From Bradyrhizobium algeriense (GTDB lineage Bacteria; Pseudomonadota; Alphaproteobacteria; Rhizobiales; Xanthobacteraceae): 64,000 nucleotides of DNA. The DNA lies in NCBI RefSeq assembly GCF_036924595.1, contig NZ_JAZHRV010000001.1, positions 6,289,501 through 6,353,500 on the forward strand. Direction: 5' to 3'. The stretch's first letter is position 1. Every line of letters begins with the position of its first letter. Shown in pieces: positions 2,680-52,325 of the stretch. A program made the translations under genes and the position numbers. The notes beneath the pieces were generated by a model. That model was not told where the DNA came from and did not search any database. It saw only the letters and a list, made by a program, of their open reading frames with translations.

Positions 2680-3624
2680 TTACTTTCCGAGCTTACCGAG
2701 CGCTTCGGTCAGTTCAGGAACCGCCTGATAGAGGTCCGCCACCAGGCCGTAATCGGCAACCTGGAAGATCGGCGCGTCTTCATCCTTGTTGATCGCAACG
2801 ATCACCTTGGAATCCTTCATGCCGGCGAGATGCTGGATCGCGCCGGAGATACCGATCGCGACATATAGTTCCGGGGCGACCACCTTGCCGGTCTGGCCGA
2901 CCTGCCAGTCGTTGGGCGCATAGCCGGCATCGACCGCGGCGCGCGAGGCGCCGACGCCGGCGCCGAGCTTGTCGGCGAGCGGCTCGATATATTTGGCAAA
3001 GTTCTCGCGGCTCTGCATGGCGCGGCCACCGGAGACGATGATCTTCGCGGAAGTCAGTTCCGGACGGTCGCTCTTCGCAACCTCCTCGCCGACGAAGCTG
3101 GATAGGCCCGGATCGGCCGCAGCAGTGGCGTTCTCCACCGTCGCGCTGCCGCCGTCACCGGCCGCGGCGAAAGTCGAGGTCCGCACCGTGATAACCTTCT
3201 TGGCGTCCTTCGATTTCACCGTCTGGATCGCGTTGCCGGCATAGATCGGCCGCTCGAACGTGTCAGGCGAAACCACCTTGATGATCTCCGACACCTGCAT
3301 CACGTCGAGCAGCGCCGCGACGCGCGGCATCACGTTCTTGAAGCGCGAGGTGGCGGGCGCGACGAAGGCGTCATAGCCTGAAGCCAGCGACACGATCAGC
3401 GCGGCCAGCGGCTCGGCGAGGTCGTGGGCATAGGCAGCGTTATCGGCGAGCAGCACCTTCTTGACACCGGCAAGCTTGGCCGCGGCATCGGCCGCCGCCT
3501 TGGCGTTCTCGCCGGCGACCAGCACGTGGACGTCGGCACCGAGGGCGGCTGCTGCCGTCAGCGCCTTGTTGGTCGCGTCCTTGATCGACGCGTTGTCGTG
3601 TTCAGCGATCAGTAGCGTCGTCAT
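2680..3624 (-). CDS. etfA: electron transfer flavoprotein subunit alpha
   Basis: FAD-binding subunit of the ETF heterodimer that takes electrons from acyl-CoA dehydrogenases and passes them to ETF-ubiquinone oxidoreductase. The N-terminal domain I is followed by the C-terminal FAD domain with [51 protein letters not shown] and the terminal [20 protein letters not shown]. At 314 residues it has the normal length for group I (housekeeping) ETF alpha. The start ATG overlaps the etfB stop by one base (TGATG at 3626-3622), so the two are translationally coupled. Confidence 0.95.
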
Positions 3625-4373
3625 CAGAGAACCCCGGCTTCGGTCTTGAGTTTCGTTACCAGCTCAGCAACGTCCTTGACCTTGACGCCACCCTTGCGGC
3701 CCGGAGGCTCCGCGGTCTTGAGCACTTCGAGATGCGGCGTGAGATCGACGCCGTAATCTGCCGCGCTCTTGTCGTCGATCGGCTTCTTCTTCGCCTTCAT
3801 GATGTTGGGCAGCGACGCGTAGCGCGGCTCGTTCAGCCGCAAATCGGTGGTGACGATCGCCGGTCCCTTCAGCTGCACGGTCTGCAGGCCGCCGTCGACC
3901 TCGCGCGTGACCTTGAAATCGCTTCCTTCGACTTCGAGCTTGGAGGCAAAGGTCGCCTGCGACCATCCGAGCAGCGCCGCCAGCATCTGGCCGGTCTGGT
4001 TCGAATCGTCGTCGATCGCCTGCTTGCCGAGAATGACGAGGCCGGGCTTCTCCGCGTCAGCCACGGCTTTCAGAATCTTGGCGACCGCCAAGGGCTCCAC
4101 ATTGCCTTCGGCCTTGACGAGAATCCCGCGGTCGGCGCCCATGGCGAGACCGGTCCGGATCGTCTCCGAGGCCTGCGCCGGGCCGATCGACACCACCACC
4201 ACTTCGGTCGCCTTGCCGGCTTCCTTCAGCCGCAGCGCTTCCTCGACGGCGATTTCGTCGAACGGATTCATCGACATCTTCACGTTGGCCAGTTCCACGC
4301 CCGTTCCGTCGCTCTTGACGCGGACCTTGACGTTGAAATCGACCACCCGCTTTACCGGCACAAGAACCTTCAT
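3624..4373 (-). CDS. etfB: electron transfer flavoprotein subunit beta
   Basis: AMP-binding subunit of ETF. It starts [20 protein letters not shown] and contains [19 protein letters not shown], the diagnostic ETF-beta signature, and the recognition-loop region [21 protein letters not shown]. At 249 residues it is of standard length. AGAGGA lies just before the ATG. First gene of the minus-strand etfB-etfA unit; the 1-base overlap with etfA assures equal subunit supply. Confidence 0.95.
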
Positions 4374-4489
4374 CGATCCTCTTTCGCTTGAATTCTGGGG
4401 TTTTATTGGCTTGGGCGCGGAACCTAATGGCCCCGCTATCGGCGGTCAACGCGCGAAAGCCAAAAATCAGCCCTTGGATAGAGGCTATC

Positions 4490-6330: not shown

Positions 6331-7510
6331 CCAGAAAGATATCGGCGCCGGCGGCGCGCGATGCCGCCTCGTCCTCGCTGCGGCCGGATATGCCGATGAT
6401 CGGAATGCGCCCGAGCGGCGGCTGAAGCGCGCGAATGCGCGTGATCGCTTCGATGCCGTTGATCCCCGGCAGGACCATGTCCATCAGCACCGCATCGAAC
6501 GCGCCGTGCGCAAGCCGCTCGGGCGCCGCCTCGCCCTGGCCGATGAACTCGGTCTGGTGACCAAGCTCGGTCAGGATCGCGTTGAGCACGACGCGGCCGA
6601 ACGGATTGTCCTCGACGCTGAGCAGGCGCAACGGCCGCGGCGAACCGATCGACGCCTCGCCATCGGCGCCCGACGCCGCCGTCACCGCGTCCTTTGCCGA
6701 TGACATCACGACATTGAAGGTAAAGGTGGTGCCGCCGCCACGGCGTTGCGTCACGGCGACATCGCCGCCCATGGCGCGCGCCAGTTGCTTGACCGACGAC
6801 AATCCGAGACCGGCGCCGCCGAAGCGCGATGCAATGGAGACATTGGCCTGCGAAAACGGCCGGAACAGGCGTTTGACCTCGCTCAGCGTCATGCCGATCC
6901 CGCTGTCGGAGACCTCGAATTGGACGGCGACCTTGCCTTTCGGGCTGCGCAGGGGCGTAACCTCGAGGGCGACGCTGCCCTGGTCGGTGAATTTCACGGC
7001 ATTGTCGATCAGGTTCTCCACCGCGGCGCGCAGGCGCACGGGATCGCCGATCGCAAATGCCGGCAGCTTTTCGGAAATGACGACCGACGACTGCAGGCCC
7101 TTGGCCGCCGCGCGGCCGGTCAGCGAATCACCGGCATTGCGGGCGAGCGTGCGCAGGTCGAAGAAGTCCTGCCGCACCTCGAGCCCGGGACCGCCGCTGC
7201 GCGCCGCATCGACGAACAGGGTCGCAAGGCTCGCCAGATGTTCCGCGCCCGCCTTGATGGTGTCGACCCAGCGCCGCTCGCGCTCGTCGAGTTCGGACGT
7301 CGCCAGGAGATTGCTGATTGCCAGAATGCCTGTGAGCGGCGTGCGGACCTCATGCGCGAAGGCCGCCAGCGCGGTCTCGACCATGCCAGCGCCGGTGGCG
7401 GCGGATTTGCGGGCACCGCGCATTTTTGCCGCGGCGCTGGATGCGCGCTTCTTCGCTGGCCGCTTCTTTACTGGCCGTGTGATGCGTTGTGAGCGCCGCT
7501 TTGCCGCCAT
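6254..7510 (-). CDS. soluble hybrid histidine kinase/response regulator
   Basis: 418 residues with no membrane helix and no recognisable sensor domain. The N-terminal 36 residues are extremely basic (KKRPAKKRASSAAAK). HisKA follows with phospho-acceptor His in FAHEVRTPLTGILAISN, then HATPase_c with N box NLIDNAVKFTD, G1 box DSGIGMTLSE and G2 box GGAGLGLSSVKQLA. The C-terminal receiver domain starts LRLLSVEDNPFGR, with the acceptor Asp in AVLMDMVLPG and the Lys in FLVKPVSP. The ATG at 7510 has a strong AGGAAGGGGG site; a longer frame upstream would run into gluQ. The input signal is unknown and probably cytoplasmic. Confidence 0.88.
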   Translation of the reverse strand: MAAKRRSQRITRPVKKRPAKKRASSAAAKMRGARKSAATGAGMVETALAAFAHEVRTPLTGILAISNLLATSELDERERRWVDTIKAGAEHLASLATLFVDAARSGGPGLEVRQDFFDLRTLARNAGDSLTGRAAAKGLQSSVVISEKLPAFAIGDPVRLRAAVENLIDNAVKFTDQGSVALEVTPLRSPKGKVAVQFEVSDSGIGMTLSEVKRLFRPFSQANVSIASRFGGAGLGLSSVKQLARAMGGDVAVTQRRGGGTTFTFNVVMSSAKDAVTAASGADGEASIGSPRPLRLLSVEDNPFGRVVLNAILTELGHQTEFIGQGEAAPERLAHGAFDAVLMDMVLPGINGIEAITRIRALQPPLGRIPIIGISGRSEDEAASRAAGADIFLVKPVSPRALATALHEATSPSAIATS

Positions 7511-9468: not shown

Positions 9469-10161
9469 ATGACCATCCACCTCAGCAGCCAGTCCGACCT
9501 CGAAGACGCCGTCCACGCGCTGGTCAAGCAGGACGCGCGGCTGAAGCCGATTTTCGAGCTGACGGGCATGCCGGCGCTGCGGCAGCGCGAGCCGGGCTTT
9601 GCCGGCCTCGCCGCGATCGTGTGCGGCCAGCAATTATCCACAGCCAGCGCTGGGGCGATCTGGGCGCGGCTGGCGGCCGCGTTCGATCCGTTCGACCATG
9701 ATTCCATCCGCAAGGCCCGCGCCGACCGCCTCGGCCGGCTCGGGCTTTCGGCCGCCAAGATCAAGACGCTGAAGAATATCGCGCGCGAACTGGCGGCCGA
9801 ACGGCTGAACCTCGACGTGCTGGCGGAAGAGGATGCCGACGCCGCCCACCACACGCTGACGGCGCTGCACGGCATCGGCCCGTGGACCGCCGACGTCTAC
9901 CTGCTGTTCTGCCTCGGCCATGGCGATGCCTGGCCGGCCGGCGATATCGCCATACAGGAAGCGATCAAGATTGGACTTGGCCTGCAGGCGCGCCCGAACG
10001 CCAAGCAGATGGCGCCACTGGCGGAGCCATGGCGCCCGCTGCGCGGGGCGGCAGCGCATCTGTGGTGGAGCTATTATCGCGTGCTGAAGAAACGCGAGGG
10101 CGTGCTGGCCGACAAGCTCATCCCCGCAACCTCACCCGATCCTCTCGCGCGGAAGCCGTGA
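9469..10161 (+). CDS. DNA-3-methyladenine glycosylase II (AlkA-like)
   Basis: Base-excision glycosylase of the HhH-GPD superfamily, removing alkylated purines. The helix-hairpin-helix is ALHGIGPWTADVYLLFCLG, followed by the catalytic-Asp region AWPAGDIAIQEAIK. The N-terminal ASAGAIWARL segment and upstream FAGLAAIVCGQQLS are typical. At 230 residues it lacks the N-terminal beta-domain of E. coli AlkA, like many alphaproteobacterial forms. Its last 44 bases overlap the convergent LysR gene. Confidence 0.9.
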   Translation: MTIHLSSQSDLEDAVHALVKQDARLKPIFELTGMPALRQREPGFAGLAAIVCGQQLSTASAGAIWARLAAAFDPFDHDSIRKARADRLGRLGLSAAKIKTLKNIARELAAERLNLDVLAEEDADAAHHTLTALHGIGPWTADVYLLFCLGHGDAWPAGDIAIQEAIKIGLGLQARPNAKQMAPLAEPWRPLRGAAAHLWWSYYRVLKKREGVLADKLIPATSPDPLARKP

Positions 10162-11005
10162 CGAAATCGATTACGGCGCGCACGGCTGGAAGTTCGACGA
10201 GATCGGGATGCGCCAGCAGCCAGAGGTCGGCCACGCTGGCGAGCTTCTGTGGCGCGACGCGGACGAGATCCGGATAGGCGGTCGCGACAAAGCAGGACAG
10301 CGTCGAAATCCCCAGGCCCGCGCGCGCCGCGGCGAGCATGTCGCCTTGCGACGAACATCGCATCACCATCGAGCCCTGCCGTGTGATTGCGTCGCTCCAG
10401 CGCGCCAGCCGCTCGTTCGACAAGCGGTCGGCAAAGCCGATCACGCTGTGTCCCTTCCATTCGTCGCGCCGTTCGGGGAGCCGCCGCCGCGCGGCGTACT
10501 CCCGCGAGGCGTAGAAGCCGGTGCCGAGCCGGCCGATCTTGCGGCCGATCAAATTCTCTTCGCCGCTGTCCACCGGGCGCAGCACGACATCGGCCTCGCG
10601 GCGGCGCACGCTGGCCGGATAGGGATGGGTGATGATCTCAAGCTGGATATGGTCATGTGCGCGCAGGAACGGACCGAGCTTCGGCATCAACCAGTGCGAG
10701 GCGAGCGTAGAACCGATCGACAGCTTGACCACGCCGCGCGCCTGCGCGCCCGTCGCAGACACCGCGGCCTCCGCACGCAGCGCCGCCGCCGCCATCGCCT
10801 CGACGTGCTCGCGAAACTTGCGGCCCTGCGCGGTCAGCGAAAGACCTTCATTGGAGCGCGCGAACAGGGGAATGCCGAGCTGGCCTTCCAGTTCGGCAAT
10901 CTTGCGGCCGACCGTCGGATGGCTTGAGCGCAACCGGCGCGCGGCGGCGGCGAGGCTGCGGGTCTCGGCCACCGCGACGAAGGTCTTGCACAGCTCCCAG
11001 TCCAT
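10118..11005 (-). CDS. LysR family transcriptional regulator
   Basis: The N-terminal winged HTH reads CKTFVAVAETRSLAAAARRL, then SHPTVGRKIAELEGQLGIPLF and ARSNEGLSLTAQG. The effector-binding domain begins GVVKLSIGSTLASHWLMPKL. The 295-residue form starting MDWELCKTF has GAGGGGAG before it; an upstream ATG (11041) would add 12 unlikely residues. It is divergent from the nitronate monooxygenase gene, with a perfect palindrome between them, so it probably controls that gene. Confidence 0.9.
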   Translation of the reverse strand: MDWELCKTFVAVAETRSLAAAARRLRSSHPTVGRKIAELEGQLGIPLFARSNEGLSLTAQGRKFREHVEAMAAAALRAEAAVSATGAQARGVVKLSIGSTLASHWLMPKLGPFLRAHDHIQLEIITHPYPASVRRREADVVLRPVDSGEENLIGRKIGRLGTGFYASREYAARRRLPERRDEWKGHSVIGFADRLSNERLARWSDAITRQGSMVMRCSSQGDMLAAARAGLGISTLSCFVATAYPDLVRVAPQKLASVADLWLLAHPDLVELPAVRAVIDFVTASAREDRVRLRG

Positions 11006-11057
11006 CGGCTCCCCTCGCGACGCCGCAGCCGCACTGTTCATTCCTGATTGATCACCT

Positions 11058-11071
11058 GTTCAATATTGAAC
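11058..11071. promoter_or_regulatory. candidate LysR operator (14-bp perfect palindrome)
   Basis: GTTCAATATTGAAC is a perfect palindrome lying 53 bp before the LysR start and 139 bp before the nitronate monooxygenase start. It contains T-N11-A spacing, as expected for LysR-type operators. Binding is inferred from position and symmetry only. Confidence 0.5.
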
Positions 11072-11209
11072 GACTGCAGCGTGCCGTCCAGCCCTATAAT
11101 GCCGTCAACAAGCGCAGGTCAGCGGCTCCGCCCGGCCTGAAGCTCTCAAATCAACATCAATGGATGCGCTCCGGACGTAACCGGCCCTGCGCGATCAAGG
11201 AGGAACTGA

Positions 11210-12184
11210 ATGCCGCTGCCCGCTTCGCTCGCCAATTCGCTCGAACTGCCGGTGGTCGGCTCGCCGCTGTTCATCGTGTCCGGACCGGAACTCGTGATCG
11301 CCCAGTGCAAGGCCGGCATCGTTGGCTCATTCCCCGCCCTGAACGCCCGCCCCGTCGAAAAACTCGGCGAATGGCTGAGCCGAATCGAGAACGAGCTCGG
11401 CGAGTACAAGGCGCTGCATCCGCAGAAGAAGGTCGCGCCTTACGCGGTCAACCAGATCTGCCACGCCTCGAACGACCGGCTGATGAAGGACATGGAGACC
11501 TGCGTAAAGCACCAAGTTCCGATCATCATCACCTCGCTGCGGCCGCCGATCGAAATCGTCCAGGCCGCGCATTCCTATGGCGGCGTGGTTTTCCATGACG
11601 TGATCAACGTCAAGCATGCGCGAAAAGCCGCCGAGCATGGCGTCGACGGTCTCATTCTGGTCTGCGCCGGCGCCGGCGGCCATGCCGGCACGCTGTCGCC
11701 GTTCGCGCTGCTGCGCGAGGTGAAGCAGTGGTTCAAGGGCACCGTCCTGTTGTCGGGCGCAATCTCCGACGGCTGGGGTATTGCGTCCGCGCTCGCGCTC
11801 GGCGCTGACATGGCCTACATGGGCACGCGCTTCATCGCGACCGCGGAAGCCAACGCCGATCCGGCCTACAAGGCGGCGCTGGTCGAGCACGCGGCGCACG
11901 ACATCGTCTACTCCAACCTGTTCACCGGCGTGCACGGCAATTATCTCGGGCCCTCGATCGTGGCCGCGGGGCTCGATCCCGACAATCTGCCGCTCAGCGA
12001 CAAGTCGAAGATGAATTTCGGTTCTGGCGGCAACACCAAGGCCAAGGCGTGGCGCGACATCTGGGGCTCCGGCCAGGGCATCGGCCAGATCGCGGATGCG
12101 CCGCCGGTCGCCGAACTGGTGGAGCGGCTGAAGGCTGAATTCACTGATGCTAGTGGCGACTTCCTCAAGCGAGCGCGTGCGTAA
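11210..12184 (+). CDS. nitronate monooxygenase (2-nitropropane dioxygenase family)
   Basis: FMN-dependent TIM-barrel enzyme oxidising alkyl nitronates. Family parts seen are IVSGPELVIAQCKAGIVGSF near the N-terminus, VVFHDVINVKHARKAAEHGV, and the flavin phosphate-binding segment LVCAGAGGHAGTLSPFALL. MAYMGTRFIATAEANADPAYK is the usual late motif. 324 residues is normal. The start has AAGGAGG 7 nt upstream. Its context (divergent LysR upstream; binding protein and acyl-CoA synthetase downstream on the same strand) suggests a small catabolic cluster. Confidence 0.9.
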   Translation: MPLPASLANSLELPVVGSPLFIVSGPELVIAQCKAGIVGSFPALNARPVEKLGEWLSRIENELGEYKALHPQKKVAPYAVNQICHASNDRLMKDMETCVKHQVPIIITSLRPPIEIVQAAHSYGGVVFHDVINVKHARKAAEHGVDGLILVCAGAGGHAGTLSPFALLREVKQWFKGTVLLSGAISDGWGIASALALGADMAYMGTRFIATAEANADPAYKAALVEHAAHDIVYSNLFTGVHGNYLGPSIVAAGLDPDNLPLSDKSKMNFGSGGNTKAKAWRDIWGSGQGIGQIADAPPVAELVERLKAEFTDASGDFLKRARA

Positions 12185-12236
12185 GACACGCCGGCACAAC
12201 GAATAGCCAATCAAACAAAACAGAGGGACGGAAACA

Positions 12237-13424
12237 ATGAGAGTGTCGCGACCTTTATTGACGATCGCATTCGCGCTGTTGGCAAATGCTGCCGCTCTCG
12301 CCGAGGGCGACAAGGACGAAATCCGCATCGGCCAGACGCTGCCCTACAGCGGTCCGGCGTCCGGCTTCGGCATCATCGGCCGGGCGCAGGAGGCCTATTT
12401 CGAGAAGATCAACACTGAGGGCGGCATCAATGGCCGCAAGATCAAGTTCATCAGCCTCGACGACGCCTACTCCCCGCCCAAGACGGTCGAGCAGACCCGA
12501 AAACTCGTCGAGCAGGAGGAAGTGCTGCTGATGTTCGGCTCGCTCGGGACCGCCACCAACAACGCGGTGCATCGCTACCTTAACGGCAAGAAGGTGCCGC
12601 AGCTCTTCGTGCTGAGCGGCGCGACCAAATGGGCCGACCCGAAGAATTTCCGCTGGACCATGCCGGGAATGGCCGCCTACCAGTCCGAAGGCGTCGTCTA
12701 TGCCAAGCATATCCTGCGAACCAAGCCTGACGCCAGGATCGCCATTCTTTCCCAGAATGACGATTTCGGCCGCGATTACGTCGCCGGCTTCAAGCGCGGC
12801 CTGGGAGACAAGGCCGCGACCATGATCGTGTCGGAGGCAACCTACGAGACATCAGCGCCGACGATCAGCTCGCAGCTTGCGACGCTGAAGGCCTCCGGCG
12901 CCAACGTGATGTTCGGCGTCGTGCTCGGCAAATTCACCTCGCAGATGATCAAGGGCGTCGCCGAGATCAACTGGAAGCCGGACCAGTTCTTCGTGCCGAC
13001 CTCGGCATCATCGATCTCGTTCCTGGAGCCGGCTGGCCTCGACAACGCCGTCGGCCTGATCTCGTCCAGCAACGTAAAGGACACGCTGGACGCGCAGTGG
13101 GCCAATGATCCCGGTGTGAAGGAGTATTTCGCCTTCATGAAGCAGTATCTGCCGAATGCGGATTTGACCAATTCGAACTACGCTGCCGGCTATCATTATG
13201 CCAACCTGATGGTGAAAGTTCTGCTGGCCTGCAAGGACGATCTCAGCCGCGAGAACATCATGAAGCAGGCGGCGTCGCTGCGCGAGGTGCCGCTGCCGCT
13301 GTTGTTGCCGGGCATCACGGTATCGACCGGCGCCGACGACTATCTGCCGTTCCAGCAATTGAGGCTGCGTCGCTTCGACGGCAAAAGCTGGATCGGCTTC
13401 GACGAAATTCTGGATGATGGCTAG
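12237..13424 (+). CDS. ABC transporter substrate-binding protein, branched-chain amino acid type
   Basis: Periplasmic binding protein of the LivJ/Leu-Ile-Val class. A signal peptide spans residues 1-22, then IRIGQTLPYSGPASGFGIIG, FEKINTEGGINGRKIKFISL and DDAYSPPKTVEQTRKLVEQE, all typical. 395 residues. No permease or ATPase gene is adjacent, so it is an orphan that may use a shared transporter. It sits 52 bp after the nitronate monooxygenase and 30 bp before an acyl-CoA synthetase, probably one transcript; the ligand may be an aromatic or fatty acid (inference). Confidence 0.88.
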   Translation: MRVSRPLLTIAFALLANAAALAEGDKDEIRIGQTLPYSGPASGFGIIGRAQEAYFEKINTEGGINGRKIKFISLDDAYSPPKTVEQTRKLVEQEEVLLMFGSLGTATNNAVHRYLNGKKVPQLFVLSGATKWADPKNFRWTMPGMAAYQSEGVVYAKHILRTKPDARIAILSQNDDFGRDYVAGFKRGLGDKAATMIVSEATYETSAPTISSQLATLKASGANVMFGVVLGKFTSQMIKGVAEINWKPDQFFVPTSASSISFLEPAGLDNAVGLISSSNVKDTLDAQWANDPGVKEYFAFMKQYLPNADLTNSNYAAGYHYANLMVKVLLACKDDLSRENIMKQAASLREVPLPLLLPGITVSTGADDYLPFQQLRLRRFDGKSWIGFDEILDDG

Positions 13425-16401: not shown

Positions 16402-18162
16402 ATGCTCGACAGGACGGACGACAGTTCGGTTGCCGCAGACAATTGGCTGGCGCAATTCGAGGAAGCGCTCGGAAAGCCCGATGAAGCCCTGCTGAAGACG
16501 CTGTTCCATCCCGACAGCTATTGGCGCGACGTGCTGGCGCTGAGCTGGAATATCCAGACGATCAATGGCGCCGATGCGATCCTGAAAGCCCTTCCGCCGC
16601 TGGCCCGCAGCGCTTCGCCCAGCGGCTTCGCCGTTACGCCCGGGCGCGCCGCGCCGCGAAAGGTGATGCGTGCGGGCACCAACGCGATCGAGGCCATCTT
16701 CAAGTTCGAAACCAGGGTCGGGCGCGGCAGCGGCATCATCCGCCTGATCCCCGATGCGGACGATGGCAACCGTTTGAAGGCCTGGACGCTCTTGACCGAG
16801 CTTGGCGAGTTGAAAGGTTTTGAGGAGCAACTCGGCGTCAATCGGCCGCGCGGCAACGCCTATTCACGGGACTTTCGCGGGCCTAACTGGCTCGACCTGC
16901 GCAAGGCCTCCGCCGAATATGCCGACCACGATCCAACCGTCCTCGTCATCGGCGGCGGCCAATCCGGGCTTTCCATCGCCGCCCGCCTGAAGCAACTGAA
17001 TGTCGACACGCTGATCGTCGATCGCGAGCAGCGCATCGGCGACAACTGGCGCAAGCGCTACCATGCGCTGACGCTGCATAATCAAGTTCAGGTCAACCAC
17101 CTGCCTTACCTGCATTTCCCGCCGAACTGGCCGACCTATATTCCGAAGGACAAGCTCGCCAACTGGTTCGAAGCCTATGTCGAGGCGATGGAGTTGAACT
17201 TCTGGACCGAGACCGACTTCGAGGGCGGCAGTTACGATGAGCAGCAAGGCCGTTGGACGGTGACGCTGCGCCGTGCCGACGGCGCCAAGCGCACCATGCA
17301 TCCGCGCCATGTCGTGCTCGCGACCGGCGTCAGCGGCATTCCGAGCGTGCCTGACATTGCCGGACTGAAGGATTTTGCCGGCAAGGTAATGCATTCCAGC
17401 CAATACGACGACGGCGAGAACTGGAAAGGCAAGCGCGCCATCGTGATCGGCACCGGCAACAGCGGCCACGACATCGCGCAGGACCTGCATTCGAGCGGCG
17501 CAAAAGTCACACTGTTTCAGCGCTCTTCCACGCTGATCGTCAGCATCGAGCCATCGGCGCAGCTGGTCTACGCGCCCTACAATGAAGGCACGCTGGAGGA
17601 TAACGACCTGATCACCGTCTCGATGCCGCTCAAGCTGGCGCGCAGGAGTCACGCGATGACTGCAGAAAAATCCAAGGCGCTCGACAAGGAATTGCTCGAC
17701 GGCCTGGAGCGCGTCGGTTTCAAGCTCGATTTCGGCGACGACAATACCGGCTGGCAGTTCAAATATCTCACCCGCGGCGGCGGCTATTATTTCAACGTCG
17801 GCTGCTCCGACCTGATCGTGAAGGGCGAAATCGCGCTGAGGCAATTCGCCGATCTCGATACGTTCACGGCCGATGGCGCCAAGATGAAGGGCGGCGAGAC
17901 CATTGCCGCCGACCTCGTCGTGCTGGCGACCGGCTACAAGCGCCAGGAAGAGCTGGTGCGAAAACTGTTCGGCGAGACGGTGGAGAAACGCGTCGGCACG
18001 ATCTGGGGCTTTGGCGAGGAGCAGGAACTGCGCAACATGTACGCCCGCACCGGCCAGCCCGGCCTCTGGCTGATCGCCGGCGGCCTCGCGCAATGCCGCA
18101 TCGGCTCGAAACACTTAGCGCTGCAGATCAAGGCGATCGAGGAGGGGCTGCTGCAGCGCTAA
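16402..18162 (+). CDS. flavin-containing monooxygenase with N-terminal NTF2/SnoaL-like domain
   Basis: 586 residues. The first 130 form an NTF2/SnoaL-like domain (EEALGKPDEALLKTLFHPDS, YWRDVLALSW). The oxygenase part has FAD-binding VIGGGQSGLSIAARL near residue 180, the FMO fingerprint FAGKVMHSSQYDDGENW, the NADPH site VIGTGNSGHDIAQDL near residue 348, and LVVLATGYKRQEELV. This gives the YUCCA/FMO-like class B architecture with an extra domain in front. The substrate is not deducible. Confidence 0.87.
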   Translation: MLDRTDDSSVAADNWLAQFEEALGKPDEALLKTLFHPDSYWRDVLALSWNIQTINGADAILKALPPLARSASPSGFAVTPGRAAPRKVMRAGTNAIEAIFKFETRVGRGSGIIRLIPDADDGNRLKAWTLLTELGELKGFEEQLGVNRPRGNAYSRDFRGPNWLDLRKASAEYADHDPTVLVIGGGQSGLSIAARLKQLNVDTLIVDREQRIGDNWRKRYHALTLHNQVQVNHLPYLHFPPNWPTYIPKDKLANWFEAYVEAMELNFWTETDFEGGSYDEQQGRWTVTLRRADGAKRTMHPRHVVLATGVSGIPSVPDIAGLKDFAGKVMHSSQYDDGENWKGKRAIVIGTGNSGHDIAQDLHSSGAKVTLFQRSSTLIVSIEPSAQLVYAPYNEGTLEDNDLITVSMPLKLARRSHAMTAEKSKALDKELLDGLERVGFKLDFGDDNTGWQFKYLTRGGGYYFNVGCSDLIVKGEIALRQFADLDTFTADGAKMKGGETIAADLVVLATGYKRQEELVRKLFGETVEKRVGTIWGFGEEQELRNMYARTGQPGLWLIAGGLAQCRIGSKHLALQIKAIEEGLLQR

Positions 18163-18177
18163 CGCCAGCGCTGCCGT

Positions 18178-18699
18178 TCACCATTCGCCGTGATCGAGGA
18201 TTTGCCGGGCAAGGAAGGATTCCGCCCGGCGCCAGGCCGCGTCGTTGTCGCCGCGGAAGCTGATATAACGATAAAACACGACTTTCCGCGCTTTCACGTC
18301 GATGACGTCGAATTTCGCCTGCTGTATCAGCGTGCTCATCTTGTGAAAGCGGCCAATCAATAGATGGGTGGCGCCGGCCTCCTTCGCCTTGCCCAGCAGT
18401 TGACCGTCATGGATGTCGCCCACCGAGCAGGCGTTTGGCGGACATTCAAGCGCTGCATTTGCTATCTTTCCGCTCGCTACCAGATCGCTGCGCAACGCGG
18501 CTTCGAATTCACGCAGCCGCCGGCGATGGTCGGCGCTTTGATCGATCACCTCACCCGAGGTGTCGACATAGTGGATTTCGGCGACGGCGAGCACGAGCGT
18601 CGGCGCCTGCGCCCGACCTTGCCGGACAGAACAGGCGCAGACAACAGCGGCGGCGGTCAAGGCGAGGCTCAGCATCCGCATTTTCATCAGATTTTCCAT
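18178..18699 (-). CDS. exported DUF2380-like protein
   Basis: 173 residues with a cleavable signal (MRMLSLALTAAAVVCACSVR); the Cys near residue 23 may suggest a lipoprotein. The mature part (LVLAVAEIHYVDTSGEV, FEAALRSDLVASGKIANAAL, ATHLLIGRFHKMSTLI, ISFRGDNDAAWRRAESFLAR) has the same layout as the neighbour at 18748-19272. The two are divergent paralogues in tandem. Role unknown. I assign the DUF name by resemblance only. Confidence 0.65.
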   Translation of the reverse strand: MENLMKMRMLSLALTAAAVVCACSVRQGRAQAPTLVLAVAEIHYVDTSGEVIDQSADHRRRLREFEAALRSDLVASGKIANAALECPPNACSVGDIHDGQLLGKAKEAGATHLLIGRFHKMSTLIQQAKFDVIDVKARKVVFYRYISFRGDNDAAWRRAESFLARQILDHGEW

Positions 18700-18747
18700 C
18701 GCAAATGGTTCCTTTGCATTGCATAACTTGCGTTTCGTTCTGGCAAA

Positions 18748-19272
18748 CTATTTCGCCTGCTCCAGCAGACGGTTTTCGATCAGCCACCGCGCCCCGCGGC
18801 TCCAGGCCACGTTGGCGCCCATACGCAGGTCGGTCTGCGCGACGGCGACGATCGCCCCGGATCTGGCGTCGCGAACCTTGTAGGTGACGGCGTATTCCAT
18901 TCGGGTGATGCGCGTGACGATCCCGATCATTGATTGATCTGCGTCGAGGCCGGCGGCGATCCTGGCATCGCAGCCGTCGCAATCCCGCAACTTGCCCGCC
19001 TTCGCCGCCTGGTCGTTCACAGTGCTGACGTCGACCAGTTGGTAGCGCCCGGATGCCGCGATCAGCCGGCGGGCTTCCTCCGTCGACAGCAGCAACTGCT
19101 CGCGGTCGATGTCATCAGGGGAGACGTAGGCGGCCCCGGCGCTGAAATCCTCCAGTTCGAACGGAAACACCGCAATTTTGATCGGAGACGGCGCGACCGC
19201 CTCAGCGGCTCCAGCCGTCGATAGCGCTGCAAGTACGATGGCCGGAGCAAGGATAAGGGCGATGGAGCACAT
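18748..19272 (-). CDS. exported DUF3280-like protein
   Basis: 174 residues with signal peptide (residues 1-22, ending ALSTAGA) and a mature part KIAVFPFELEDFSAGAAYVS, then LLLSTEEARRLIAASGRYQL and GANVAWSRGARWLIENRLLE. This is the DUF3280 pattern of small periplasmic proteins. It is paired with a paralogue 48 bp downstream and lies divergent from a two-component system, so it may be a sensor accessory or a target; this is inference. Confidence 0.7.
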   Translation of the reverse strand: MCSIALILAPAIVLAALSTAGAAEAVAPSPIKIAVFPFELEDFSAGAAYVSPDDIDREQLLLSTEEARRLIAASGRYQLVDVSTVNDQAAKAGKLRDCDGCDARIAAGLDADQSMIGIVTRITRMEYAVTYKVRDARSGAIVAVAQTDLRMGANVAWSRGARWLIENRLLEQAK

Positions 19273-19290
19273 GGATCACCTCGGAACTGT

Positions 19291-19331
19291 TAGAGCCTTT
19301 TCGGTTCTGATTGCATCAGAACCGGGCTCTA
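19291..19331. repeat. palindromic hairpin element
   Basis: TAGAGCC...TTCGGTTCTGA pairs with TCAGAACCGGGCTCTA around a TTGCA centre. It lies 18 bp upstream of the DUF3280-like start and immediately before repeat 19345-19393. It may be a repeat or a regulatory hairpin. Confidence 0.5.
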
Positions 19332-19344
19332 GATTCTTGTTTTG

Positions 19345-19393
19345 ATGCGTTTTCTTCACGCGAACCGGCGTCCACTTCGCTTGAAAACGCTCT
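19345..19393. repeat. interspersed repeat, TTTTCTTCACGCGAA family, copy 2
   Basis: ATGCGTTTTCTTCACGCGAA, followed by CCGGCGTCCACTTCGCTTGA, matches copies at 2487-2534 and 60799-60843. Confidence 0.75.
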
Positions 19394-19573
19394 ATCTCGG
19401 AACTGCCTTACTCGTTGCGATATCGCCCGAGCTGCTGCCCTGCGGAAACGGCCGCTTTCCCTGGATCGGCCGGGTGAAATACCCGATCTTGTCCTGCCCC
19501 TCCTGCCCCACTTTCTTCCCGGCGAGATTTGCCTCACTATCGATGCCGATGGGAGAAAGCTTGAGGAGGAAGC

Positions 19574-20980
19574 TTGCGACAGGCATCCAACTCCGTGGCG
19601 AGCCACCCGCCCGCCATCGATCTGAAGCTGCGGCTGGCGTTACGCGTCGCGGCGCTCGCGGCGGTTTGCTTCATCGCGGTTGCAGCCTACGCCTTGTTTG
19701 ACAGCGACCGTGTCGCGAAGGCCAAAGCAAGCCGTATCGCCGAGATCGTGGCCCGGGATATCTCGTTGCAGCAATCGCGGGCGCAATGGGTCTCGGTGTC
19801 CATCAACTCGACGCCGGATTTGCAGGGAATCGCGGCGTTGATGGAGCCGGGGCTCTGCATCGCCTACCGCGACAACGCCGGCGCGTTTCGGCAAGGCGTC
19901 TGCAGCGGAGCGCCCGCCGACGAAATGGCCGCCCCCGAAATCTTCGCGTCGCTCTACCGGGCCATTTTTCGGCCGGGTGAACCGGTCTCGATGCCGGTCC
20001 TCGTGGCGGGCAGTGCCCGGGGCACGGCCGTCGCGACCTTCGACCCGGCCACGCAGATCGGCCAGAGCTGGCGCGAGGCGAGCCGGCTGCTCTCCATCAT
20101 GGCTTTCGCGCTGGCTGGGCTTTGCATTGCGGTCTATGCCACGCTGGCGCGCGCGCTGCGGCCGACGCGGGCCATTGGCGCCGGGCTGAACCAGCTGGCG
20201 GCGAACGACCTTTCCGCGCGGCTGCCCCGCTTCGATCTCGCGGAATTGTCTGTCATCTCCGGCGTATTCAATACGCTTGCAGAACGGCTGCAGACCACCC
20301 TCGCCGAACGCAACGCCCTGACGCGAAAGCTGATCGAAGTGCAGGACGAGGAGCGGCGCCATCTTGCACGCGAGTTGCACGACGAATTCGGCCAGTCGCT
20401 TTCCGCTATCGCGGCGCAGGCCGCCGCCGCCGCCCACACCGCGGAGCGCGAATGCCCGCCGCTCTACGAGGAATGCCGGGGCATCTCGCGCACGACCGCG
20501 CATATGATGGAAACCCTGCGCGGGGCGCTGGTGCGCCTGCGTCCGCCCGATGTCGAGGAACTCGGCCTCACGATCAGCCTCGAAAGCCTGGTTGCGAGCT
20601 GGAACGGTTTTGAGAAGGGCCGCACCCGCTTTGAGATTGCCGTCATTGGCGAGGCCGACGATTTGCCGCCCGGTGTCAGCGCCAGTCTTTACCGGATCGC
20701 GCAGGAGGCGATCACCAACGCGGCAAAGCACGCGCACGCCAGGCACGTGCAATTGCGCCTCGAGGCCGGAGATGCCGACATCGTCCTGAGCGTCGAGGAC
20801 GATGGCGAAGCTGATGGCGCCAGCCTCGCGCCGAAAGCCGGCATGGGACTGCTCGGTATGCAGGAGCGCGTGGTTTCGCTCGGAGGGACCTTGCAATTCG
20901 AGCGGCGCGAGGCGGGCGGCGCCCGGCTTGTCGCGCGCATTCCCACCATGCGGGCGGAGCCTCAGCCATGGCAGCCTTAG
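19574..20980 (+). CDS. NarX/UhpB-type sensor histidine kinase
   Basis: 468 residues. Two membrane helices (about 18-40 and 174-194) enclose a periplasmic domain. A HAMP-like segment follows (LRPTRAIGAGLNQLAANDL, then RLPRFDLAEL). HisKA_3 has the phospho-acceptor in RHLARELHDEFGQSLSAIA. The ATPase part has YRIAQEAITNAAKHAHARHV and GMGLLGMQERVVSLGGTLQF. The start is TTG at 19574 with GAGGAGGA just before it; no better start exists. Its last 13 bases overlap the response regulator, so the two are one operon and a cognate pair. Confidence 0.88.
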   Translation: MRQASNSVASHPPAIDLKLRLALRVAALAAVCFIAVAAYALFDSDRVAKAKASRIAEIVARDISLQQSRAQWVSVSINSTPDLQGIAALMEPGLCIAYRDNAGAFRQGVCSGAPADEMAAPEIFASLYRAIFRPGEPVSMPVLVAGSARGTAVATFDPATQIGQSWREASRLLSIMAFALAGLCIAVYATLARALRPTRAIGAGLNQLAANDLSARLPRFDLAELSVISGVFNTLAERLQTTLAERNALTRKLIEVQDEERRHLARELHDEFGQSLSAIAAQAAAAAHTAERECPPLYEECRGISRTTAHMMETLRGALVRLRPPDVEELGLTISLESLVASWNGFEKGRTRFEIAVIGEADDLPPGVSASLYRIAQEAITNAAKHAHARHVQLRLEAGDADIVLSVEDDGEADGASLAPKAGMGLLGMQERVVSLGGTLQFERREAGGARLVARIPTMRAEPQPWQP

Positions 20981-47583: not shown

Positions 47584-47913
47584 CTACCAGCGGTAGCCGC
47601 CGGTGCCGAAGCTGAAGGTTACGCCGGGGCCGCCGCCGTAGTAGCGGGGACCGTAATAGCCGTAAGGGCGCGGGGCATAGTAGTTGTAGCTCCCATAGTA
47701 CGGCCGGTAATGACGGTGGCGCCAGTGGTGATGGTGATGGCCATGCCAGTGGCGATAGCGATATTGCGCGCTGATGTCGGTCGAGGACTGCGTGGCAGTC
47801 CGGGAGGCATCCGCCGAAGATCTCGACTTCACCGCATTGTCGGCGGCGTAGGCCGCGGAACCTCCCATCAGGGCGGCGGCACCAACGGCAAACACGATAG
47901 CTAGCTTCTTCAT
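47584..47913 (-). CDS. exported histidine/tyrosine/glycine-rich protein
   Basis: 109 residues. The signal peptide is MKKLAIVFAVGAAALMGGSA, ending AAYAAD. The mature part has the cluster HWHGHHHHHWRHRHYRPYYG, then repeats of Tyr, Pro and Gly (YNYYAPRPYGYYGPRYYGGG). His clusters suggest metal binding; function unproven. TGGAG lies before the ATG. A terminator follows. Confidence 0.7.
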   Translation of the reverse strand: MKKLAIVFAVGAAALMGGSAAYAADNAVKSRSSADASRTATQSSTDISAQYRYRHWHGHHHHHWRHRHYRPYYGSYNYYAPRPYGYYGPRYYGGGPGVTFSFGTGGYRW

Positions 47914-48202
47914 CGTCGAACTCCAGTAGAACGAGTGAAGGCTAACCGGCCGGCGCACGTGACGTTCCGGCGTGCGACATAAAGCCCAAGATCGCCTGAA
48001 CGAATGTTCATGAAACTGAACGCAGTTCTTCTGAACAATTGACCATCGCGAAGTTCGCGTTGACTTCGGCAGCACATCCACCCGCGAAGCTTCCAGCTTG
48101 CAATCACACTCGTTCTGGTTCAGACTTGTGCATCATTTCATAAGCAACCATTGATTGCCGACGACTCCAGCGGTGCCGCTTACCAGCCGGCCGGAGGATA
48201 TT

Positions 48203-49534
48203 ATGGGTAGCTGTTTTGTCATTATGGGCTTTGGCGAGAAGACCGACTTCCAGTCGAACCCGCAGCGTGTTCTGAACCTGAACAGGACCTACGAAGACAT
48301 CATCAAGCCGGTGGTGGAAGAGGCCGGCCACACCTGCGTTCGCGCGGACGAGATCATCCATTCCACCGTCATCGACAAGCCGATGTACGACAATCTGCTT
48401 TCGGCAGATCTGGTCATTGCGGACCTGTCCACGGCCAACGTCAACGCGGTGTATGAGCTCGGCGTTCGTCACGCGCTCCGCCCACAGCGGACGATCGTGC
48501 TGGCGGAGAAGAACTTCAGCTTCCCGTTCGACCTCAATCATCTCAGCATCCTGAAATACGAACACCTCGGAAAGGAGATTGGGTTCAAGGAGGTGATGCG
48601 CGTCAGGGAAGAACTGAAAAAAAAGATCACGGTGCTGATGGACAGTCCCGAGCCCGACAGCCCGGTCTTTCTGTTCATCCCCTCGCTTCAGCCTGCCAGC
48701 CTTCCCAAGGCGCCGGCGATGGTCGCCGCGGGGCCGCCCGCGCCCTCCTCTGAGCCCACGGATCGGGAGCAGAAGAGCTTCGCCGAACTGCTCGTAAGCT
48801 TTCGCGCCGCGAAAGACGAGGTCAAGGAGGCTGACGATTGGGCTCTACCTCTGGCCCTTCTGAAGCGACTGAAGGCGATGCAGCCTGACGACCCCTACAT
48901 CCTCCAGCAACTGGCGCTCGCGACCTACAAGTTCCAACAGCCGGACAAGAAGACATCGCTTATCAATGCAAAGAACATTCTGAACGCGCTTGCGCCACAA
49001 ACGTCGAGCGATGCCGAGACGGTGGGACTGTGGGGCGCCATCCACAAACGGCTGTGGGATGAGACGGAAAATCCTGAGGATCTCGATGATGCGGTGCGGG
49101 CTTATGCGAGAGGCTACTACATCAAAACCGATTATTATAACGGCATCAACTACGCATTCGTGCTCGACGTTCGCGCGTCCCGCAGCGAGGGCGATGAGGC
49201 TTTGGTGGATCGGCTTCTCGCGCGACGGGTCCGCAAGGACGTCCTGAAAATCTGCGACCGTCTGTTGCAAGCCGCAGCCGCGGCGGCCGAACCCGGATCG
49301 AAGCATGACGCACCCGGCGCCAGCGCCGACGAGTTGTTCTGGATCGGGGGGACGAAGGTTGAGGCCTTGTTCGGGTTGGGCCGCAGAGACGAGGCGGGAA
49401 GTCTGAAGACCGAGATTGTCGAGAAGGAACGCCAGCGCCTGATCAAGGCCGGCCGCAATGGCGACGCCGTGAATTGGATGGGGTCCAGCCTGAACGACCA
49501 GTTGAAGAAGCTGGGCGAGCTATTGCCGCCTTGA
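48203..49534 (+). CDS. deoxyribosyltransferase-like domain fused to TRAFs-binding (ASK-type) TPR region
   Basis: 443 residues. The N-terminal domain (1-120) is a flavodoxin-like nucleoside 2-deoxyribosyltransferase/TIR-like fold: GSCFVIMGFGEKTDF, DIIKPVVEEAGHTCVRADEI, and the active-site-like ADLVIADLSTANVNAVYELG with Glu85 in YELGVRHAL. After a Pro-rich linker, residues about 195-440 are helical repeats of the type called TRAFs-binding domain (DUF4071), found in MAP3K5/ASK kinases and bacteria: LALATYKFQQPDKKTSLINA, DAVRAYARGYYIKTDYYNGI. GGAGG precedes the ATG. The patatin gene starts 35 bp downstream, so the two are one operon. No kinase domain is present. Confidence 0.8.
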   Translation: MGSCFVIMGFGEKTDFQSNPQRVLNLNRTYEDIIKPVVEEAGHTCVRADEIIHSTVIDKPMYDNLLSADLVIADLSTANVNAVYELGVRHALRPQRTIVLAEKNFSFPFDLNHLSILKYEHLGKEIGFKEVMRVREELKKKITVLMDSPEPDSPVFLFIPSLQPASLPKAPAMVAAGPPAPSSEPTDREQKSFAELLVSFRAAKDEVKEADDWALPLALLKRLKAMQPDDPYILQQLALATYKFQQPDKKTSLINAKNILNALAPQTSSDAETVGLWGAIHKRLWDETENPEDLDDAVRAYARGYYIKTDYYNGINYAFVLDVRASRSEGDEALVDRLLARRVRKDVLKICDRLLQAAAAAAEPGSKHDAPGASADELFWIGGTKVEALFGLGRRDEAGSLKTEIVEKERQRLIKAGRNGDAVNWMGSSLNDQLKKLGELLPP

Positions 49535-49569
49535 CGGGTTCGAAACACGACAGCAAATCGGGGCGACAA

Positions 49570-50745
49570 ATGGCTGATCTCAACGGGCAAGCAGAATCTT
49601 CGACCGCAAAACCGCGCAGGCTGCTGGCGCTCGATGGCGGCGGAATCCGCGGCGTGATGTCGCTCGAAATCCTGCGCAAGATTGAGCAGGATCTGGCGAC
49701 GGCCACCGGCAAGGGCGCGTCATTCCGTCTCGGAGACTTCTTCGACTATATCGGCGGCACCAGCACCGGCGCCATCATCGCGGCCGGCCTCGCGATGGGA
49801 AAGTCAGTTCAGGAACTGATCGATTTCTACATCGAGGCGGGACCGCTGATGTTCGAAAAGACATCCCTGATCGGCCGGCTGCGCAGCTTCTATCAGGCCG
49901 ATCCGCTGCGCGAGAAACTGAACGACGTGTTCGGGGAGCGCACGCTTGGAGCCAAAGACCTGCGTTCGCTGCTGTTGGTCGTCACGCGAAATGCAACGAC
50001 GGATTCGCCGTGGCCCGTCTCTAGCAATCCCCTCGCCCGGTACAACGATCGCGACCGCCCGGACAGCAATCTGCAAATTCCGCTGTGGCAGCTGGTGCGG
50101 GCGAGCACCGCCGCACCCGTCTATTTCCCGCCTGAAATAGTCGAGTGGGATAAAGACGACCCTGCAAAAACCTTCTTCTTCGTCGATGGCGGCGTCACAC
50201 CTTACAATAACCCGGCCTTCCTGCTGTTCCGGATGGCGACGCTGCCGCAGTACCGGCTGAACTGGCCTACCGGGGAGGACCGCATGATGCTGATTTCGGT
50301 CGGCACGGGAGCGGCGGCAGCGGTCAGCCGTGACCTCAACGCGCGCGGACAATTGATCCCGGCCAACGTCGCGCACCTTCCCGGCGTGCTGATGGGCGGC
50401 GCTGCGATCGACCAGGATATCAATTGCCGCGCTATCGGCCGCTGCGTGTTCGGCGAGCCGATCGACCGCGAGATCGGCGACATGATTCCGCGGCAGGGCG
50501 ATCCGCTCGAGGGAGTCCTCGTTCCGCTCGAAGAAGATTGCGGCCGCCAATTCCTGTATGCCCGCTACAATCCCGATGTGAGCCGAGGCGGCCTCGACGC
50601 TTTGGGGCTGAAGAAGATCGATCCGGATCACGTCCGGGCGCTGGATCAGATCAAATACATCGGCGAGATGCAGTCTGTAGGACGAGAGTATGCCGCGAAG
50701 TTCGTGGACATGACGCCATTCCAGCGATTCGTGACGAAGGACTGA
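49570..50745 (+). CDS. patatin-like phospholipase
   Basis: 391 residues. The oxyanion loop is GGGIRG (23-28) in LLALDGGGIRGVMSLEILRK, the nucleophile elbow is GTSTG with Ser65, and the catalytic Asp206 is in FFVDGGVTPYNNPAFLLF. The dyad is complete, so it is probably an active lipid acyl hydrolase. No signal peptide; it acts from the cytosol on membranes. The fold matches effectors such as CapV of CBASS, but no CD-NTase is nearby. It is co-directional with, and 35 bp after, the DRHyd-TPR gene. Confidence 0.87.
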   Translation: MADLNGQAESSTAKPRRLLALDGGGIRGVMSLEILRKIEQDLATATGKGASFRLGDFFDYIGGTSTGAIIAAGLAMGKSVQELIDFYIEAGPLMFEKTSLIGRLRSFYQADPLREKLNDVFGERTLGAKDLRSLLLVVTRNATTDSPWPVSSNPLARYNDRDRPDSNLQIPLWQLVRASTAAPVYFPPEIVEWDKDDPAKTFFFVDGGVTPYNNPAFLLFRMATLPQYRLNWPTGEDRMMLISVGTGAAAAVSRDLNARGQLIPANVAHLPGVLMGGAAIDQDINCRAIGRCVFGEPIDREIGDMIPRQGDPLEGVLVPLEEDCGRQFLYARYNPDVSRGGLDALGLKKIDPDHVRALDQIKYIGEMQSVGREYAAKFVDMTPFQRFVTKD

Positions 50746-50767
50746 CGGAGCAAAGGCAACGGCCGCC

Positions 50768-51355
50768 TCATGACCACAGTTGCCTCGTGTCCAGCCAATG
50801 GGTCCGGCCACCCTTTTTTTGCACCTCCTGCATCAGGTGCTGGGTTCCGCCCGGGCCGTCGCCGCCGGCTCCATTCCACAGGCAGAGAAAATCGACCTTT
50901 TCGGCACCGTATCCCGTGGCCACTTGCAGCATCCACACATTGTTGCGTTCGTAGGGATTTTCGTCAGCCTGGAGCGGGCCAATCTCTTCGGGCGCGATGT
51001 GCAATACGGCCTGTGACTTCGCTGCAAAATAGCGCGAACGCCAGTCCGCATCGGCAAAGTCGACGGATTTCGCAAGAAACTTGTCCTCCTCAAACGGAAG
51101 ATAGATCGCAAGGCTCAATTGCCGGGCCAGCGCTGCCTCGGCGAACAGCAGATCCCCGCCACACGCGCCTCCGCAAATCGCCAGATCGCCGCGCTCCACG
51201 GCGATCTGATCGAGCAGATCTTCGATCGCTTTGGCGGCGATCGGCTCCTTGTCTGCCGGGAACCGGGGCTCCTCACGGGTCGGGCTATCGATCATGTGGC
51301 CGCTGAAAAGCAGCACCTTGCGCGGTTTGATCTCGCCCGAAGCTTGAGATGCCAT
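50768..51355 (-). CDS. SLOG/Rossmann-type nucleotide-binding domain protein
   Basis: 195 residues. VLLFSGHMIDSP at the N-terminus and LAICGGACGGDLLFAEAALA at about 60-80 give the SLOG-like pattern (GG-x-x-GGD followed by a helix), as in the TIR-like/LOG superfamily that binds or cleaves nucleotides. The C-terminal part has AEKVDFLCLWNGAGGDGPGG. Convergent with the patatin gene, 22 bp apart. ATG at 51355; a GTG lies one codon upstream. A sensor or effector role in the neighbouring module is inference. Confidence 0.68.
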   Translation of the reverse strand: MASQASGEIKPRKVLLFSGHMIDSPTREEPRFPADKEPIAAKAIEDLLDQIAVERGDLAICGGACGGDLLFAEAALARQLSLAIYLPFEEDKFLAKSVDFADADWRSRYFAAKSQAVLHIAPEEIGPLQADENPYERNNVWMLQVATGYGAEKVDFLCLWNGAGGDGPGGTQHLMQEVQKKGGRTHWLDTRQLWS

Positions 51356-51491
51356 CACTGAGCCCTCACCTTGCGCTGACGGCCTGTTTTAACAGAGAAG
51401 CTGCCGGCGGCGTGAAGCAAGATTGTTTCCTCCATCGCGGGCGCCATCATGATCGCGAGGGCCGCAAGGGTAACCGAAAGCCGCGCCCGCA

Positions 51492-52325
51492 TCACGCGCC
51501 GGAATCGCTGGCGTTGGGATGGAACAACTGCTCGCCGTTGATCTTGTAGTCGGCGATCGCCTTCTGGCCCTCCGACGACACCAGCCAGTCGATCAACTGC
51601 TGGCCAAGATCCTTCTTGACGCTCGGATGTTTTTCCGGGTTTACCAGCATGACGCCATACTGGTTGAACAGCCGCTTGTCACCTTCGATTACGATGGCGA
51701 GATCGCCGCGGTTCTTGAACGACAGCCAGGTACCGCGATCGGCGAGCACATAGGCGTTGGAGGCGGATGCGGTGTTGAGCGCCGCGCCCATGCCCTGCCC
51801 GATCTCCTTGTACCAGGGGCCCTTGTCCTTGGCGATGTCGACGCCGGCGACCTTCCAGAGGTTGAGCTCGGCCTGATGGGTGCCGGACTTGTCGCCGCGG
51901 GAAATGAAGTCGGCGCCCTTGGCCTTGATCGCCGTGAGCGCTGCAACGATGTCCTTCGAGCCCTTGATGCCGGCCGGATCGCCCTTCGGGCCGATCAGGA
52001 TGAAGTCATTGTACATCACGGGGTAACGCTTGACGCCAAAACCTTCGGCGAGAAATTTTTCTTCTGCAGGTTTGGCGTGGACGAACACGACGTCGGCATC
52101 GCCGCGGCGCGCGGTATCGAGCGCTTGTCCGGTGCCCTGCGCCACCACCTTCACATCGATGCCGGTCTTGGCCTTGAACATCGGCAGGATGTGGCCGAAC
52201 AGGCCGGAATCCAGCGTCGAGGTGGTCGAGGCCACCACGATCGATTTATCCTGTGCGACGGCGTGGCCTGCGAATACGAAGCTGGCGGTCACCGCCATGA
52301 TCAAACGGCGCCTAAGCATGTTCAT
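51492..52325 (-). CDS. tupA: tungstate ABC transporter substrate-binding protein
   Basis: 277 residues. The signal peptide ends near GHAVAQD. The oxyanion-binding N-terminus is IVVASTTSTLDSGLFGHILP, typical of TupA (TTTS motif), followed by VVAQGTGQALDTARRGDADV, FISRGDKSGTHQAELNLWKV and GWYKEIGQGM-type segments (WYKEIGQGMGAALNTASASN). It captures tungstate in the periplasm. GGGAG before the ATG. Last gene of tupBCA; 14 bp after tupC. Confidence 0.92.
   Translation of the reverse strand: MNMLRRRLIMAVTASFVFAGHAVAQDKSIVVASTTSTLDSGLFGHILPMFKAKTGIDVKVVAQGTGQALDTARRGDADVVFVHAKPAEEKFLAEGFGVKRYPVMYNDFILIGPKGDPAGIKGSKDIVAALTAIKAKGADFISRGDKSGTHQAELNLWKVAGVDIAKDKGPWYKEIGQGMGAALNTASASNAYVLADRGTWLSFKNRGDLAIVIEGDKRLFNQYGVMLVNPEKHPSVKKDLGQQLIDWLVSSEGQKAIADYKINGEQLFHPNASDSGA

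Follow-up and report, generated by a model that had tools for sequence, protein, structure and literature searches.

In a 64,000-nucleotide stretch of the Bradyrhizobium algeriense genome (the window; positions 6289501-6353500 of an 8.1-Mb single-contig genome), two genes, A and C, belong together with an effector gene to a conserved unit, a result that our comparisons strongly support. Gene A (48203..49534, forward strand) encodes a protein of 443 amino acids (aa) in which a DRHyd domain is followed by a TPR-S/ASK1-like TPR region. The effector in the window is gene B (49570..50745, forward strand), a patatin-like phospholipase of 391 aa. Gene C (50768..51355, reverse strand) is convergent with B and encodes a SLOG-fold protein of 195 aa. 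In our view this cassette is probably a mobile conflict module in which A and C, by handling a nucleotide, control the effector. Such a conflict role would most likely be anti-phage, through abortive infection.

Co-occurrence, fusion and mobility of the cassette

We used gene C as the only bait in a scan of one genome per species (84,980 species), which gave 230 confirmed stretches. The best 80 were kept and represent 79 distinct loci, many of them from metagenome bins with short contigs; since only the best 80 were kept, this set leans toward close relatives of C. Neighbouring genes come from a simple longest-open-reading-frame caller, and their start positions are rough. Within 4 kb of C, a DRHyd gene was present at 52 of the 79 loci, a patatin at 36 and both at 27. 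Restricted to loci with 4 kb or more of sequence on both sides (47), the counts were 35 (DRHyd), 25 (patatin), 19 (both) and 6 (neither). Where at least 9.5 kb was available on both sides (40 loci), patatin hits numbered 24 within 4 kb of C but 2 at 5-10 kb, and DRHyd hits 31 and 1, respectively. Adjacency by chance is rare, because the whole 8.1-Mb genome of the window has just 9 patatin and 3 TPR-S matches. One C was counted per locus, and at L037, which holds two, the first copy, adjacent to A and B, was left uncounted. That locus carries two module copies within one 20-kb stretch (10001-12974 and 17378-20183), one in the order of the window (C, B, A) and the other comprising a second C, a distant DRHyd gene and a TIR gene.

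At 26 of the 79 loci, C is in frame with a TPR-S region, giving a DRHyd-TPR-S-SLOG protein in all cases except L063, which was counted as a fusion with only its TPR-S part in frame with C. The C domain of a 655-aa fusion, used as a query against the protein database, matched 3066 clusters of long proteins, and among the 120 matches listed all carry PF20308 or PF13281. When a fusion gene is paired with a patatin, the lipase starts -4 to 39 bases past the fusion gene in 7 of the 9 listed pairs. That C and A are joined in one protein in many lineages supports the reading of the two as a core.

The 27 loci with both A and B show six gene orders: B-C-A in the same direction (11), fusion then B (10), the convergent type of the window (2), C-A facing B (2), fusion facing B (1) and A-C-B (1; L063). 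Linkage that survives such reshuffling argues for joint function. Across these loci, Mantel correlations between the parts of A, B and C ranged from 0.70 to 0.79 (0/999 permutations as high), values that still include shared species history.

In Bradyrhizobium, the cassette behaves as a unit that is present or missing at a single chromosomal spot. We looked for the two flanking genes in 60 genomes of the genus and compared 12 relatives in which both are close in sequence and on one contig; the comparison left out congeners without both flanks near-identical on one contig (e.g., G012 and G321). Three of the 12 carry the cassette (L157-L159), and the other nine (L148-L156) gave zero matches to A, B or C. 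In L155 (genome G319), the matches to window positions 47585-48023 and 51478-51596 are 34 bases apart, compared with a gap of 3454 in the window, and this comparison places the cassette at approximately 48024..51477. Among the other cassette-free relatives, the gap is ~140-400 bases in three and filled with 1.1-1.6 kb of other sequence in five. One carrier (L157; G031 C1:8904300-8910100) has a split A (3381-4374), with residues 1-303 intact and then small C-terminal remnants, beside B and C that match near full length, and is a decaying copy.

A cassette of nucleotide-salvage, lipid-repair or stress genes that are neighbours by chance would need no conflict role, and we regard this explanation as very improbable. 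DNPH1-like and LOG-like folds also serve nucleotide clean-up, and the guanine-plus-cytosine (GC) content of the cassette (0.60-0.62) is near that of its flanks (0.61), as housekeeping genes would have it. Its patchy distribution argues otherwise: across 248 genomes of the family, the present one included, C was found in 15 and any match to the A profile in 33, and a long A match (>300 residues) occurred in 4 of 60 genomes, again with its own counted. The presence or absence at a single spot, the GC content at third codon positions (0.70-0.77 in A, B and C, under the 0.83 of the two flanking genes) and the exchange of the patatin for caspase, TIR or SLATT effectors, described below, also argue against housekeeping.

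Exchangeable effectors beside the core

The partners recur across numerous unrelated bacteria, but not as a fixed set: other effectors can take the place of the patatin, and often do. We scanned 37 non-core neighbours at C loci with Pfam, and 17 were of conflict types: eight TIR proteins (two below the Pfam cut-off; two with PASTA), four nSTAND1 proteins and one each of caspase, a CHAT-hydrolase-TPR-S giant, SLATT/DUF4231, a TPR-S-patatin fusion and WD40. One TIR protein near C (L062) also had a sub-threshold SIR2 match. Over the 79 loci, 30 had a patatin only, 23 another effector only, 6 both and 20 neither, where "another effector" means CHAT, caspase, SLATT and two TIR clusters, each cluster being named after a scan of one or a few of its members. 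At the 40 loci with full flanks, 30 members of the alternative-effector and nSTAND/WD40 clusters lay within 4 kb of C, compared with 8 at 5-10 kb. A FastTree tree built from 80 C domains requires at least 17 changes in patatin presence and 16 in architecture, counts valid for that tree, in which 24 of the 77 inner branches are starred.

Two effectors are themselves fused to TPR-S. At L050 (12076-14685), a TPR-S region is joined to a patatin in a protein of 869 aa that lies behind a separate pair of C and DRHyd-TPR-S genes, and at L052 TPR-S is part of the CHAT-hydrolase giant. Such fusions imply that TPR-S is able to work on an effector in cis. They favour a relay by protein contact, in which DRHyd and SLOG only bind a nucleotide, no second messenger is made and TPR-S restrains the lipase until the ligand changes. 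We think this unlikely. The residues Glu85 (52/52), Arg89 (52/52) and Asp69 (51/52) of the DRHyd domains found within 4 kb of C are conserved to a degree that exceeds the needs of a scaffold.

A defence system with other wiring is slightly less unlikely than such a relay. Here the DRHyd domain of A would be a killing NADase or nucleotidase, the patatin would be a parallel effector, and C would be a brake that captures or degrades the nucleotide and so spares the cell in small alarms. The C-A fusions suggest a shared state over an off-switch, although fusion of a brake is conceivable as well. Exchange of the effector beside a core that stays the same also speaks against this wiring. Both this wiring and the contact relay have part of our main reading in common, so the likelihoods that we attach to the three overlap and do not sum to one.

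Several results weigh against a conflict module built on A and C. Neither A nor B lies within 4 kb of C at 18 of the 79 loci, and G020 has A without C. On plasmids, 66 records matched A, and eight of these loci were compared with B and C by tblastn: one (L017) has patatin and C relatives and one (L016) has C only, and the other six (L018-L023) have TIR genes and neither patatin nor C. The 20 remaining scanned neighbours of C are unrelated enzymes, regulators, transposases or proteins without a family match. The mutual exclusivity of patatin and the other effectors (Fisher p = 0.0009) comes from a test that takes no account of relatedness or of contigs cut short, and the other families were chosen for their recurrence near C. 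A scan of viral contigs with C gave 43 pattern matches and zero relatives. The family libraries covered A, B and C within the window, and no defence island was shown there. Finally, C stands outside the A-B operon in the window and, being convergent, is not co-transcribed with it. A scan for promoters and terminators found 1 and 4 sites, respectively, compared with 0.7 and 3.5 in shuffled sequence.

A preliminary description of the window had proposed a three-gene immunity module and had named co-occurrence in other genomes as its check. That proposal is partly supported and survives the check: the families co-occur, A and C are often fused, the effector gene is exchanged and the cassette is gained or lost as a unit. 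It is incomplete in two respects, as C lies outside the A-B operon and the effector varies.

Two of the plasmid loci, L018 (NZ_CP123001.1) and L020 (NZ_CP120216.1), place A among TIR, DUF4231, a 7-cyano-7-deazaguanine synthase-like gene and a sugar kinase, with AbiEii nearby in L018 and macro/DarT in L020; the surroundings look like a defence island. In L016, a 102-bp "GIM-2 beta-lactamase" call (6378-6479) between the A and C relatives is probably a spurious resistance call.

The three proteins and their likeness to known systems

The preliminary description had recognized A as a 443-residue DRHyd/TIR-like protein with a TRAFs-binding TPR region and Glu85, B as a patatin 35 bp past A with a Ser65/Asp206 dyad, and C as a convergent GGACGGD SLOG-like protein 22 bp from B. 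All three descriptions were confirmed, and Glu85 and the two residues of the patatin are kept wherever they could be aligned.

The DRHyd domain of A spans residues 1-160 (48203..48682) and the TPR-S core residues 217-320 (48851..49162), within a wider TPR region that reaches to about residue 440. TPR-S (PF20308) scored 85.6 bits against a gathering cut-off of 27.6, and MAP3K_TRAF_bd was also above its Pfam cut-off. The N-terminal half had no Pfam match; it matched a PADLOC TIR effector model (E 6.5e-10), but the nearest folds to its DRHyd domain are MilB and DNPH1. A weak profile match (E 0.04-0.06) aligns Glu85 (codon 48455..48457) with the glutamate in the YELG motif of Rcl/DNPH1. Fold and catalytic glutamate together place this N-terminus among the DRHyd/nucleoside hydrolase-transferases, with a predicted activity. 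Burroughs, Aravind and colleagues (NAR 2015; J Bacteriol 2020) reportedly predicted TPR-S to be a reader of NAD-derived signals and the source of the TPR region of ASK1 (MAP3K5), a stress kinase of humans and other animals. Relatives of the DRHyd domain occur in 33 phage or prophage records of Staphylococcus, Streptococcus and Enterococcus (e.g., KM389417.1 4113-4520); only the first ~150 residues matched, at ~30-34 percent identity among the 20 matches listed. The N-terminus matches three PHROGs families, and PHROGs lists such phage DRHyd families as of unknown function. Outside the window, the same genome (G000) has further TPR-S matches at C1:6141458-6141898 and C1:4864192-4864458, in frames of 1918 and 809 aa that perhaps resemble the CHAT-type giants and the TPR-S-patatin fusion.

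Gene B carries the GGGxR, GxSxG and DGG/A motifs of patatin-like phospholipases and scored 97.5 bits with Patatin PF01734 (cut-off 27.7). The nucleophile Ser65 (codon 49762..49764) lies in GTSTG and Asp206 (codon 50185..50187) in DGG. In the 36 patatins near C, Ser65 is present in 34 and Asp206 in 33, the remaining 2 and 3 being alignment gaps, and the arginine of GGGxR is kept in 32, replaced by leucine in 3 and opposite a gap in 1. PHROGs offered one family of unknown function. Gene B matched the PADLOC "Effector, Phospholipase" model (E 2.4e-44); models of this name are presumably those of the cyclic oligonucleotide-based antiphage signalling system (CBASS). The closest solved structure by sequence is CapV (8zr9; E 4.2e-22), a phospholipase activated by cyclic GMP-AMP.

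Gene C has the Rossmannoid fold and glycine-rich loop of SLOG proteins, and we assigned it to that superfamily by fold because a sequence search of solved structures gave nothing credible (3 matches, best E 0.09). No Pfam or NCBIfam model passed its cut-off (PF10686 YAcAr, 13.0 against 28.2 bits; NCBIfam, 0 matches), and PHROGs gave one doubtful weak match (E 9e-4). The GGACGGD motif occupies residues 62-68 (51152..51172, reverse strand). In 30 aligned sequences, A64, G66 and D68 are invariant and G63, C65 and G67 nearly so, and the FSGHMID, RFP and GGACGGD stretches are almost invariant. Identity to YpsA, ShosA and DprA is 21, 11 and 12 percent across aligned residues; the FSGHMID...RFP and GGDGPGGT stretches conserved in C set it apart from these proteins, and it is without a curated family. 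In the protein database, 2957 clusters match C. The SLOG domain of ThsA was absent among the 50 fold matches listed for C, which excludes nothing.

We compared the cassette with two established systems. The patatin resembles CBASS effectors such as CapV, but its partners here are a DRHyd-TPR-S protein and a SLOG protein. Gene B reached 119.8 bits with the NCBIfam CBASS lipase NF041079, under its cut-off of 200, and 78.2 bits with the DS2_1 anti-phage phospholipase (cut-off 400). The module had been described as working without a cGAS/DncV-like nucleotidyltransferase, and this holds for SMODS PF18144, the sole model of that enzyme used, which had 0 matches in the whole genome; the same search was positive in 3 of 14 control genomes, including that of E. 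coli. Membership in CBASS was rejected on this ground. Thoeris is similar in that a SLOG protein is paired with a TIR-like/DRHyd enzyme, in A a putative one; the SLOG domain of ThsA binds in a pocket 3'cADPR, a cyclic ADP-ribose isomer made by a TIR enzyme (PMC11204291), which is a precedent for our main reading. The SLOG protein here differs in being YpsA-like and either separate or fused to the enzyme, not to the effector, and a patatin serves as effector. Scans of A, B and C with Pfam, NCBIfam and PADLOC gave no match to a SIR2, macro or ThsA model, and Thoeris membership was rejected for want of ThsA among the three genes.

Other reports describe TIR, DRHyd and SLOG domains as one clade that makes or reads nucleotide signals, NAD-derived ones included (PMC9503650), the repeated use of SLATT and TIR/DRHyd parts in predicted conflict systems (PMC7159879, PMC8195603), and DUF4062, a TIR-like NADase family, as an anti-phage system (PMC13174449). 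Neither the component families nor their roles in conflict systems are new; among the papers listed by our searches of open-licence literature, we recognized no description of the DRHyd-TPR-S-SLOG core, of this SLOG family or of the patatin pairing.

Proposed mechanism and meaning

We propose the following steps for nucleotide control of the effector by A and C; their order is tentative, possible rather than probable. Infection would engage the TPR-S region of A by a presumed trigger. The DRHyd site with Glu85 would then cleave an N-glycosidic bond in nicotinamide adenine dinucleotide (NAD+) or another nucleotide. C, in complex with A or in line with it, may bind or process the nucleotide product as the putative signal. 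The activated A-C core would turn on the effector of the locus, here patatin B; the point at which the lipase becomes activated is the least certain element. Patatin B would finally degrade membrane phospholipid, leading to cell death or arrest as the expected phenotype.

It is quite possible, though we stop short of calling it probable, that DRHyd-TPR-S-SLOG is a distinct and widespread immune switch with a plug-in effector (patatin, caspase, CHAT, TIR or SLATT), parallel to CBASS and Thoeris. Its SLOG family would be an undescribed one, and the switch would correspond in bacteria to the regulatory half of ASK1, but with an enzyme that is still active. If this is true, thousands of mostly unnamed clusters, "hypothetical" or "TRAFs-binding", would form one modular immune switch, and a SLOG family would be gained as a candidate reader of NAD-derived signals. 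With its three genes, the cassette would also be a simple setting for studying what the DRHyd-TPR architecture of ASK1 originally sensed and made.

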